A DNA stretch of 40,207 nt. Origin: Hyphococcus sp. (GTDB lineage: Bacteria > Pseudomonadota > Alphaproteobacteria > Caulobacterales > Parvularculaceae). The stretch covers positions 1 to 40,207 of the forward strand of contig JANQOV010000126.1 in NCBI GenBank assembly GCA_028285645.1. Reading direction: 5' to 3'. Both the position numbers and the translations under genes were made by a program. Shown here piece after piece: positions 22,379 to 24,927 of this stretch; the stretch's first letter is position 1, and each line of letters starts with the position of its first letter. The notes beneath the pieces were generated by a model, which was given only the letters and a program-made list of their open reading frames with translations, made no database searches and was not told where the DNA came from.

Positions 22379-23176
22379 ATGAATGATCCTCTTTTCACGA
22401 ACAAGATCGCCGCCGCTGGGCTAACGGCGCTGCTTTTGATTTTTGGCATTCCGATCCTTGTCCACAATGTGCTCGGCGGCCATGGCGGACACCACGGGGA
22501 AAAGGAAGCGTGGCCGTTTCCGCACTACCCGGCGCTAGATATCGGCGCCGGAGCCGGCGGCGGGGCTGAAGAAGAGGCGCCGCTTGATCTTGGCACGCTG
22601 CTTGCCAACGCCAGCGCCGGCAGCGGCGAACGCCGATCTGCAATCTGCGCCTCCTGCCATACTTTTGACCGAGGCGGCGCTCAGGGCGCCGGCCCTAACC
22701 TCTGGGATATTGTCGGGCGCCCCGTCGCCAACGTCGCCGGCTTCAACTATTCCGGCGCGCTCAGCGGACTAGGCGGCACATGGACCTATGAACGCCTTGA
22801 CGGTTATCTCAAAGATTCACAAGCCTATCTGCCGGGCACCGCTATGGTCCAGCGCTTTCCTAGAGACAATCAGCGTGCTGATTTACTGGCTTACTTGCAA
22901 ACTCTATCCGACAACCCTGTCCCCTTCCCTGCGCCCGTCGTCGTTGAAGAAGCGCCGGTCGAAGAGGAAGCAGCAAGCGAAACTGAAGGCGTGATTGAAG
23001 AGGCCGCAGCCGCTGTCGGCGGCGCCATAGAGGACGCCGGCGCCGCTGTTGAAGATGCTGCGGAAGCGGTCGTAAACACGGTTGAGGATGCAGGCGAAGC
23101 TGTTGTCGATGCGGCGGAAGACGCGGTTGATGCGACCCAGGAAGCCATTGATCCGAATGGCGGCGACAATCAATAA
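22379..23176 (+). CDS. Membrane-anchored class I cytochrome c (CycM-like) with acidic tail
   Basis: A 265-residue cytochrome. An uncleaved signal anchor (about 10–30) is followed by a His/Gly-rich linker, then a haem domain with CASCH (90–94) and axial Met 156 in PGTAMVQRF. GPNLWDIVGRP lies between them. This matches the CycM type that passes electrons from the bc1 complex to oxidase. Unusual is the C-terminal extension from about residue 185: a short Pro/Val/Glu stretch, then about 60 residues of repeated E-D-A-x-E-A-V-like units, acidic and alanine-rich, likely a long helix. AGGG lies 8 bases before the ATG. Confidence 0.9.
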   Translation: MNDPLFTNKIAAAGLTALLLIFGIPILVHNVLGGHGGHHGEKEAWPFPHYPALDIGAGAGGGAEEEAPLDLGTLLANASAGSGERRSAICASCHTFDRGGAQGAGPNLWDIVGRPVANVAGFNYSGALSGLGGTWTYERLDGYLKDSQAYLPGTAMVQRFPRDNQRADLLAYLQTLSDNPVPFPAPVVVEEAPVEEEAASETEGVIEEAAAAVGGAIEDAGAAVEDAAEAVVNTVEDAGEAVVDAAEDAVDATQEAIDPNGGDNQ

Positions 23177-23211: not shown

Positions 23212-23631
23212 TTAAAACAGGATAAAGCGCTTTTTACCCTTTTTGAGGGTTTCAAGCGACTTGCCGCCGTCCTCTTTCAAAAAGCCCTGATAGTCCATTT
23301 CCGTGCGCTCAACGCGAAGCGCCGTCGATTTAAGACTCTTGATCATAGGGTCATCGACGAAAGACTGCATCGCCACCGGTTCAGTATCAGCGTCTTTTGC
23401 TTTTGATTTCTTTCGGCCGCCAAATCTCTTCGCCTTGGCTTTGATCTGTTCATGGAGCGCCGCGAAGGCTGCATGGGCGGGCGCGTTGAACGCTTCCGGC
23501 AAAAACGCCTTATCCTGCGCCTGATAGTCAACGCGGTTCGGCACGATGATGTTATCAACGCCGCGACCGGTGAGATTGCGCGTGGTGGTTTCTTCAAAAC
23601 CGGACCAAATTTGTTTCAAACGCTCGGCCAT
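23212..23631 (-). CDS. Uncharacterised partner of the Ntn-hydrolase-like protein, RFILF tail
   Basis: A 139-residue soluble protein I do not recognise. Its N-terminal third (IWSGFEETTTRNLTGRGVDN, residues 8–27) looks like a conserved block. The middle is basic (KAKAKRFGGRKKSKAK). The last residues, GKKRFILF, end in a hydrophobic tail. It starts 12 bases after the stop of the proteasome-like gene, so the two are surely co-transcribed. HslU, the partner ATPase of HslV, ends in SRFIL, which inserts into HslV; the resemblance suggests a tail-docking activator or substrate adaptor, but this rests on four residues. Confidence 0.75.
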   Translation of the reverse strand: MAERLKQIWSGFEETTTRNLTGRGVDNIIVPNRVDYQAQDKAFLPEAFNAPAHAAFAALHEQIKAKAKRFGGRKKSKAKDADTEPVAMQSFVDDPMIKSLKSTALRVERTEMDYQGFLKEDGGKSLETLKKGKKRFILF

Positions 23632-23643
23632 GCCTTACCTCAC

Positions 23644-24927
23644 TTACAATGACGGCTTTTCGCGCGTCCATTCGAGCCCGCCATTGCGGGTGATCACCGC
23701 AACGTCAATCGGCCCGCCGACGGTCTCGATCGAATGCATCACTTTTTGCTGGAAGGAATTCAGCTTGATGAGCGACGCCGCCGTCTCGCCAAGCTCCTTT
23801 TTTGGAAGCGAGTTGATGGCGCGCAAAATCGGCCGCGTATGCACCGCATATTGATATTGGTCGATGGACTGAAAATAGGCGTGCAGCGCATGGCTGAGAT
23901 TGTTCTTACTGTAATCTTTGAAGATCGCGCCGCGCTGCGCATCGGAAAGGTTGGGCGTGCGCTCGACAATATCACGCACCAGGCCCGTCGAGAGCTTTAG
24001 CGTTTCTCCATACATGAACATCCGCAAATAAGGATCCATGCCGCTCAAGAAGGTGCGGATCATCCGGTCCTGCGCAAAAGGCTGGAAGACCGGCCCGCTG
24101 TCGGAATTGATCCCCGCTTCGCGGTCGCGCTTGCGCTTCAAGATGCCAAGAATAACGCTCGACGTCAGGTAAGAGCGCATGGCGGGAAATTTTTCGCGGG
24201 CCCCGAACCCGGCGAAGACAACACCCGTATAATGTTCAAAAAAGGCGTCTTTAGTGACGGCGAAGACCGCAATCTCCTGCAGCCGCGTGCGCGTCGCTTC
24301 TGAGACCGAGAGCCCCGGAAATTCATTCTTGAGCGATTGAATCAGGCTGTCGATCAGTTGACTGATTTCGTTGCCGTAGCGCCGGCGCACCTGCTCGTCC
24401 ATGCCTTGCGGATAGCAAGCAAGATTTGGCCGCGGCGACCCGTCAGGATTTTGCTGATAATCCGCATGCAATTGACCGACAATGTACTCGAAAATCGCCG
24501 ATAAATGGTCCCGGAGGGCGCCGGCGTTTGTCTGCTGGAACTTTGCGATCTGGTTGTCGAATTCCTCTGCGATCACCGTAAACACAACGGCGACGACTTT
24601 GAAGAATTCCGTGTCCTGATGGTCTGCCGGAAACAGGTCCGGATTGCCGGACAAAAACTCCATGAAATCTTCGGCGTAGGCGTCGACCGTATCAAGCGGG
24701 CGCCCGCGCGCTTGTTCGCGATATAGAGAAATCACCGTTTCCCACGGCGTCGACATGATTTCCGCGTTGTTATAAATCATCACCGCAACGGGCTGGCCAT
24801 CGACCAGGGGAAACAGCTTGTCCACCGATTGATAGGTCTTCAAATACCGGTCGCCCGAAATTGTCACGGCGCTGTCCGCCGCCATCGCCACCGCCTGGCG
24901 GTTCATCAACACAACTTCCGATGTCAT
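23644..24927 (-). CDS. Proteasome/HslV-like Ntn hydrolase with a large helical insertion
   Basis: A 427-residue protein. Its start MTSEVVLMNRQAVAMAADSA aligns with proteasome beta subunits and HslV: removing Met exposes Thr1, Asp falls at mature position 17 (AADS) and a Lys follows in VDKLFPL (mature 36; Lys33 in proteasomes). PVAVMIYNNA comes next, like an inner strand. A later TGVVFAGFG and the C-terminal PIDVAVITRNGGLEW look like further strands of the fold. Between about residues 75 and 380 there is much more helical sequence than in a 180–240-residue beta subunit. The start is firm: GAGGGG lies about 4 bases upstream. I infer a self-compartmentalising or regulated peptidase; substrate unknown. 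Confidence 0.75.
   Translation of the reverse strand: MTSEVVLMNRQAVAMAADSAVTISGDRYLKTYQSVDKLFPLVDGQPVAVMIYNNAEIMSTPWETVISLYREQARGRPLDTVDAYAEDFMEFLSGNPDLFPADHQDTEFFKVVAVVFTVIAEEFDNQIAKFQQTNAGALRDHLSAIFEYIVGQLHADYQQNPDGSPRPNLACYPQGMDEQVRRRYGNEISQLIDSLIQSLKNEFPGLSVSEATRTRLQEIAVFAVTKDAFFEHYTGVVFAGFGAREKFPAMRSYLTSSVILGILKRKRDREAGINSDSGPVFQPFAQDRMIRTFLSGMDPYLRMFMYGETLKLSTGLVRDIVERTPNLSDAQRGAIFKDYSKNNLSHALHAYFQSIDQYQYAVHTRPILRAINSLPKKELGETAASLIKLNSFQQKVMHSIETVGGPIDVAVITRNGGLEWTREKPSL

Follow-up and report, generated by a model that had tools for sequence, protein, structure and literature searches.

A putative proteasome-like hydrolase gene of Parvularculaceae with two predicted helical insertions and a conserved downstream partner gene

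HslV has the Ntn fold, a Thr1/Asp17/Lys33-type active site, a length of approximately 175–190 amino acids and HslU as its partner. Proteasome-type chambers are regulated via the hydrophobic C-termini of their partners (HslU, HbYX motifs). Fuchs, Alva and Lupas (2021) described 22 new proteasome-like families (PMC8665760), one of which, PMI-4 (Proteasome homolog with Multiple Insertions 4), carries long insertions after H1/H2 and a further insertion between H3/H4. PMI-4 contained 501 sequences at 90% identity and was the only PMI family listed with phages or cyanobacteria (Table 1 of PMC8665760). By the published count it is the largest of these 22 uncharacterised families, and the available part of the paper reported neither a function for it nor a genomic context suggestive of one, nor co-occurrence, nor co-occurring AAA+ interactors. 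The same part of the paper described connectase, a monomeric proteasome relative that acts as a ligase, with a two-helix insertion between S3 and S4 and without H1/H2. Searches of open-access listings and abstracts for subsequent papers about PMI-4, or about a role of proteasome-like proteins in defence against phages, listed none on the family studied here.

The window analysed here is the whole 40,207 nucleotide stretch of a Hyphococcus sp. genome (contig JANQOV010000126.1). One of its genes, here termed gene A (Table 1), had been put forward in an earlier note as encoding an Ntn peptidase of twice the normal size. Analysis of the translation revealed the open reading frame to start with ATG and to begin M1-T2, as had been read, and the other residues and stretches named in that note were all located in the 427 amino acid sequence. 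Asp18 (mature position 17) is within AADSAVT and Lys37 (mature position 36) is within VDKLF, and PVAVMIYNNA, TGVVFAGFG and PIDVAVITRNGG occupy residues 46–55, 234–242 and 406–417 respectively.

Table 1. Coordinates of gene A, gene B and their features within the window
Feature	Position (nt)	Strand	Basis
Gene A, 427 aa, predicted proteasome-like Ntn hydrolase carrying two helical inserts	23644..24927	minus	ATG-start open reading frame, structural model, PDB matches and family profile
Thr2 codon, predicted N-terminal nucleophile after Met removal	24922..24924	minus	Of 133 homologs, 132 have Thr and one has Ser; aligns with Thr1 of Thermoplasma beta
Asp18 codon (proteasome position 17)	24874..24876	minus	133 of 133 homologs; aligns with Glu17 of Thermoplasma beta
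Lys37 codon (proteasome Lys33)	24817..24819	minus	133 of 133 homologs; absent from all search patterns; aligns with Lys33 of Thermoplasma beta
Helical insertion 1, approximately residues 94–232, after the first helix pair	24232..24648	minus	Model helices 101–133, 142–158, 176–202 and 210–225; boundaries approximate, H1/H2 naming inferred
Helical insertion 2, approximately residues 297–375, between late helices H3/H4	23803..24039	minus	Model helices 299–323 and 329–373; boundaries approximate
Gene B, 139 aa, partner	23212..23631	minus	Start 12 nt past the gene A stop; beside gene A in 45 of 51 loci
Conserved C-terminus of B (KGKKRFILF in the window copy)	23215..23241	minus	Basic and hydrophobic C-terminal residues shared by 42 of 44 B proteins

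When compared alone with Pfam, NCBIfam, PADLOC and the PDB, the gene A protein showed no family match above chance, and PF00227 was not found above its cut-off either for the protein or at the place of gene A in the genome. Five of 23 gene A relatives matched PF00227 weakly (best E value 0.0063), and phrog_5990 of PHROGs, which has no function assigned, matched residues 1–424 of gene A with an E value of 8.6e-78. The PADLOC models gave no match to gene A, gene B or two relatives at E values up to 1. A search of PDB sequences with the gene A family profile revealed the Thermoplasma proteasome beta subunit to be the top match, with a whole-sequence E value of 0.0013; the single stretches of this match had i-Evalues of 25 (N-terminal, not significant) and 0.5 (C-terminal). 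The profile alignment paired VGGPIDVAVI of gene A with SGGMIDVAVI of the Thermoplasma subunit.

An AlphaFold2 model of gene A, made from a 46-row alignment, had a pLDDT of 89 and a pTM of 0.84. In this model the early strands (residues 4–8, 12–18, 20–24, 29–33, 38–40 and 47–52) are followed by helices 62–73 and 81–93 and then by a helical block at 101–225. The middle strands (234–240, 249–259, 262–272 and 280–284) and a helix at 288–295 come next, and the model ends with a second helical block (299–373), a helix at 376–396 and strands 407–413 and 417–422. Foldseek analysis of the model against the PDB revealed 390 matches at E ≤ 10, of which 25 were at E ≤ 0.001 (best 4.2e-5), and the matches listed (50 of the 390) were all chains of proteasome entries with 187–220 residues, which is the size of a beta subunit. 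TM scores normalised by target length were 0.37–0.52 and rmsd values were 12–24 Å because the structural alignments span the insertions. The top-ranking of 179 matches to viral models was a phage protein named 'Proteasome beta type-2 subunit' (E value 3.8e-4).

The predicted structure is a beta-subunit-type alpha-beta-beta-alpha sandwich, which agreed with the sandwich that the earlier note had expected of a fold prediction, and a proteasome-type Ntn fold for gene A is supported by the model. The Thr/Asp/Lys set and the approximately 200 extra helical residues of that interpretation were also borne out. Its single inserted block was not, as the model shows two separate helical blocks, at approximately residues 94–233 and 297–375. 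The peptidase activity of that interpretation is putative, connectase being a relative with ligase activity (PMC8665760), and so is its cap or lid. Additionally, the larger class had been thought little described and is in fact already in print, among the 22 new proteasome homologs of PMC8665760; the gene A family is most likely PMI-4, which it matches by the description in the available part of that paper.

Conservation of the predicted active site was examined in a non-redundant set of 133 gene A homologs (<90% identity, reduced from 216 rows). Residue 2 was Thr in 132 of these and Ser in one, a Gracilimonas-type protein, and Asn9, Asp18, Ser19 and Lys37 were each present in 133 of 133; free variation at Thr2 and Lys37, which would have spoken against the earlier interpretation, was not seen. 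An alignment of 15 diverse homologs with identities down to 24% also showed T2, D18, S19 and K37 to be unvaried. Most gene A loci had been retrieved with peptide patterns that included MT.E or AAD(S), i.e. parts of residues 1–20, and the expression used to find starts demanded T, S, C or A at residue 2 plus DS, with zero rows dropped. Lys37 is the unbiased case of conservation, because the search patterns cover parts of residues 1–20 only. In the pattern-free subset of 21 rows from profile and tblastn searches, all four residues were present in 21 of 21. Position 53, assigned by eye as the presumed oxyanion position, was Gly in 72, Asn in 49 and another residue in 12 of the 133 homologs, and all 33 Parvularculaceae rows had Asn53 at this presumed oxyanion Gly position. 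Balneolota-type homologs (L114, 8001–9287; L118) begin Met-Ser-Ser, the presumed nucleophile Thr being naturally replaced by Ser.

In the Parvularculaceae, gene A is inherited vertically and stably retained, and its partner is larger than elsewhere. Of 60 genomes searched, gene A was found in 36 of 36 Parvularculaceae (one in fragments only) and in three of the 24 others. A sample of 398 genomes from across the phylum contained it in ten, including its own genome and one of the same genus. There were 210 relatives in GTDB species genomes, and the best 80 of these included members of the Nitrospirota, Chloroflexota, Bacteroidota, Planctomycetota, Actinomycetota, Bacillota and Cyanobacteriota and a Thermococcaceae archaeon. 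Homologs were also present on 10 of 72,556 plasmids, in 13 of 50,697 phage records (seven of them Streptococcus satellite phages) and on 194 viral contigs, of which 80 were kept. Phylogenetic analysis of the 133 rows placed the 33 from Parvularculaceae in one group (SH-aLRT 99); this label was given at ≥65% identity to the window protein, and two of the 33 rows were titled only Alphaproteobacteria. Mobile, plasmid and genomic copies were intermixed, with 15 changes of the mobile label, at least four of which were forced by starred branches, in a tree made by a quick method that left 47 of 130 forks open.

Gene A belongs to a gene pair with a conserved partner, which is new here; the earlier note mentioned neither this partner nor the occurrence of homologs on phages, satellites and plasmids. 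In the Parvularculaceae this partner is gene B, which adjoins gene A in 45 of the 51 loci L040–L090 (phmmer, 1e-10). The remaining six comprised L073, L082 and L085, which had a B-like open reading frame by motif, and L086–L088, which were more distant. The partner is 133–160 amino acids long in this family and evolves far more rapidly than A: compared with the window copies, median identity was 49% for B vs 80% for A, and B had the lower identity in 43 of 43 comparisons. The C-terminal tail listed in Table 1 varies in sequence, a further example being KKKRFGIF. Gene B gave no match to Pfam, NCBIfam, PADLOC or PHROG at E values up to 1, and its structure modelled alone was poor (pLDDT 70.5, pTM 0.27). 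SelO, IlvA, NfeD, cytochrome c and pheA were near gene A in 20–31 of the 51 loci L040–L090, counts which are partly explained by contig ends. Eight loci with complete 8-kb flanks (L070–L072, L075–L077, L081 and L083) contained A and B and none of these five other window neighbours.

Many gene A relatives (L091–L118) end in IWIKRKHYF..ELN..FF.NY, and the Parvularculaceae A proteins seen are without it. The C-terminus of Parvularculaceae B resembles this tail of the relatives' A proteins in having a similar basic-aromatic stretch. Beside A–B in the window (22379–23176) is a protein, named by sequence, that combines a cytochrome-c-like region of the CxxCH type with an extended C-terminal part rich in Ala and Glu.

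Downstream of A in distant relatives is a far shorter open reading frame, which often overlaps the A stop. Viral loci (<80% identity) and other loci were compared with other long genes as controls for an ATG-started frame of 40–110 codons beginning ≤60 nt from the A stop, three viral and five other loci being set aside as too near an end. Such a frame was present at 41 of 44 viral loci vs 59 of 216 control genes (p 1e-16) and at 30 of 44 non-viral loci vs 57 of 271 control genes (p 1e-9). At some of the 14 of 44 non-viral loci that failed, the frame was longer (L086–L088), had no ATG (L092) or started further off (L129). The small partners of the viral loci were 45–74 amino acids long and very diverse in sequence.

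A profile of the small partner was made from 12 seed proteins chosen by eye. Leave-one-out analysis recovered 12 of the 12 seeds with E values of 7.5e-14 to 1.8e-6 (for L103, scoring used a longer start), and the best open reading frame elsewhere, among 3,079 in 48 loci, had an E value of 0.18; a match at 0.14 was the long-start reading of the downstream frame of L113 itself. The profile matched 17 of 48 distant loci at E < 1e-4 and six of 87 viral, plasmid and satellite loci at E < 0.05; these six included two near-copies and were all downstream of A. An aromatic...aromatic-x-Pro stretch, a motif picked after viewing the sequences, was found in 27 of 66 small partners, where shuffled sequences gave a mean of 8.5 and a maximum of 18 in 2,000 shuffles. 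Neither Pfam nor the PDB gave a match beyond chance level for the small partners (16 compared) or the B proteins (30 compared), the best E value being 0.0081 in one protein. Homology between B and the small partner was not found by hhalign (E value 0.4), which leaves replacement or loss of signal; as the two are not homologous by profile, describing them as one pair throughout rests on position. No natural fusions of A with its partner were recognised among the C-terminal tails of A homologs.

The homologs on mobile elements were found at several kinds of position. In two satellite phages that were read, the gene A homolog is in the integrase-distal half; in Javan85 it is last, after the lysin, and in Stenotrophomonas phage BUCT708 it is beside the lysis genes on the opposite strand. 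The homologs of Providencia and Porphyromonas phages are co-directional with their neighbours, one copy being inside a run of structural genes. In Escherichia coli, 22 of 5,426 genomes matched the Providencia phage copy in part (14–18% of its length among the matches listed), and three loci that were read contained full genes, encoding two distinct proteins, in prophage regions. Two of these copies are opposite to their neighbours, between an antiterminator and a methyltransferase, and the third is beside a helix-turn-helix gene near an integrase. Such prophage positions are typical of genes expressed from a lysogen. As 19 of the 41 viral copies that were not at an edge ran with both neighbours, and one copy was inside a structural-gene run, not all resemble lysogen-expressed extras. 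Both neighbours were opposite at 10 of these 41 loci vs 43 of 390 other genes (p 0.018), and opposite-strand placement of gene A in viral contigs is suggestive only. In satellite phage Javan421 (L148, 12175–12658), an annotated RelBE toxin-antitoxin pair is downstream of the gene A homolog.

Two possible associations were considered and set aside. Enrichment of defence islands near A was not shown in a PADLOC analysis of 142 near and 107 far neighbours, as the far set also had defence-like hits. Among the families listed (25 of 124 and 25 of 55), methyltransferases, type IIG restriction, PDC-S02, SoFic and mad2 were hit by 2–4 near proteins, and those listed for the far set by one protein each. 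At rhizobial plasmid loci L142 (5733–7799), L144 (11699–15210), L146 (7937–11423) and L147 (11687–15203), a ubiquitin-like cluster is present a few kb from the homolog; it encodes multiubiquitin, ThiF (E1-like), a DUF6527-like protein and, in three of the four, a ClpP-like protein. As multiubiquitin and ThiF were present in only four of 189 loci (L040–L228), a link to bacterial ubiquitin-like conjugation is not general.

We consider that A is probably a dedicated Thr-hydrolase and that the partner would be its own adaptor or regulator, the pair being mobile in other groups and domesticated in the Parvularculaceae. The initiator Met would be removed from A to leave Thr2 as a free N-terminal nucleophile, chemistry that is suggested by conservation and the predicted fold, and Asp18 and Lys37 would complete the active site. 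The two helical blocks occupy sites that serve for contacts or for lining the pore in ring-forming relatives, and A therefore probably does not form an open HslV-type barrel. The partner may dock on A via its conserved hydrophobic C-terminus in the Parvularculaceae or via the aromatic-x-Pro stretch in some others, and once docked it may select or block the substrates of A. On phages, satellites and plasmids, the A–partner pair would be an accessory module, which, judging from its distribution and position, would probably serve mobile-element conflict or host takeover; in the Parvularculaceae the pair may have been domesticated for a cellular task. More tentatively, PMI-4 and its partner could form a self-contained module for proteolysis or ligation, carried by phages, satellites and plasmids, whose small, rapidly evolving, co-encoded protein directs the enzyme against rival elements or host proteins, the Parvularculaceae having domesticated one such module. 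The conserved partner gene is the new element, and it is the concrete handle that makes the gene A family testable. If the partner does steer A, phages and their satellites would be spreading a proteasome-type targeting system that is very small and has no AAA+ motor.

The two-gene layout, with a second gene that is short and fast-evolving, and the presence of the pair on prophages and satellites would also fit a toxin-antitoxin-like or abortive-infection pair, in which A, a harmful protease, is held back by the small partner as its inhibitor (immunity protein) and freed when the partner is lost or degraded. We think this unlikely, as the putative toxin gene stands first and gene A is kept in all 36 Parvularculaceae genomes. 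It is rather improbable that A is a connectase-like protein ligase or a specific processing enzyme with the small partner as its substrate or tag: the connectase insertion is at S3/S4, where the gene A model has a loop of approximately four residues, and 39 of the 66 partners are without the aromatic-x-Pro motif, although the 27 that have it exceed the shuffled maximum (for a post hoc motif) and the monomeric relative connectase has ligase activity (PMC8665760). A role of A as a general protease of proteostasis, assembled into rings like those of HslV or the 20S proteasome and supplied by an AAA+ unfoldase, has the shared fold and catalytic set in its favour. The chances of such a role are nevertheless slim, as the insertions, placed by the model, are at sites expected to hinder rings or double rings (available part of PMC8665760), there is no AAA+ protein among the named window neighbours and a separate HslV-like gene is present elsewhere in the same genome (PF00227 E value 1.1e-24; sequence read), so that gene A is no substitute for HslV. 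Finally, although all 33 Parvularculaceae rows have Asn rather than Gly as the presumed oxyanion residue, a catalytically dead structural or binding protein is very hard to credit, since Thr/Asp/Ser/Lys are kept across many phyla at identities down to approximately 24% and the sole departure at residue 2 is Ser, itself a nucleophile.

The dedicated Thr-hydrolase that we favour can be set against the described systems. Gene A is like the 20S proteasome beta subunit (Thermoplasma 1PMA) in its predicted fold, Thr1, acidic residue 17, Lys33 and the GG-IDVAVI late strand, and unlike it in its double length, its two insertions and its lack of a propeptide. HslV differs in being about half the size of the 427 amino acid gene A protein. 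Like connectase, A is a proteasome-like relative that is probably not a barrel (available part of PMC8665760); unlike connectase, its S3/S4 loop is short in the model (between strands 20–24 and 29–33). The likeness to PMI-4, as given in the available part of the same paper, extends to insertions after H1/H2 and between H3/H4 (model compared with published text, with helix naming inferred), to the absence of a propeptide and to a distribution over many bacterial phyla, Euryarchaeota, cyanobacteria and phages. Within the gene A family, the Parvularculaceae members differ from many relatives in having a larger partner and in being without the KRKHYF...NYF-type tail. Whereas the available part of the paper gave no informative context for PMI-4, gene A has a conserved partner directly downstream.
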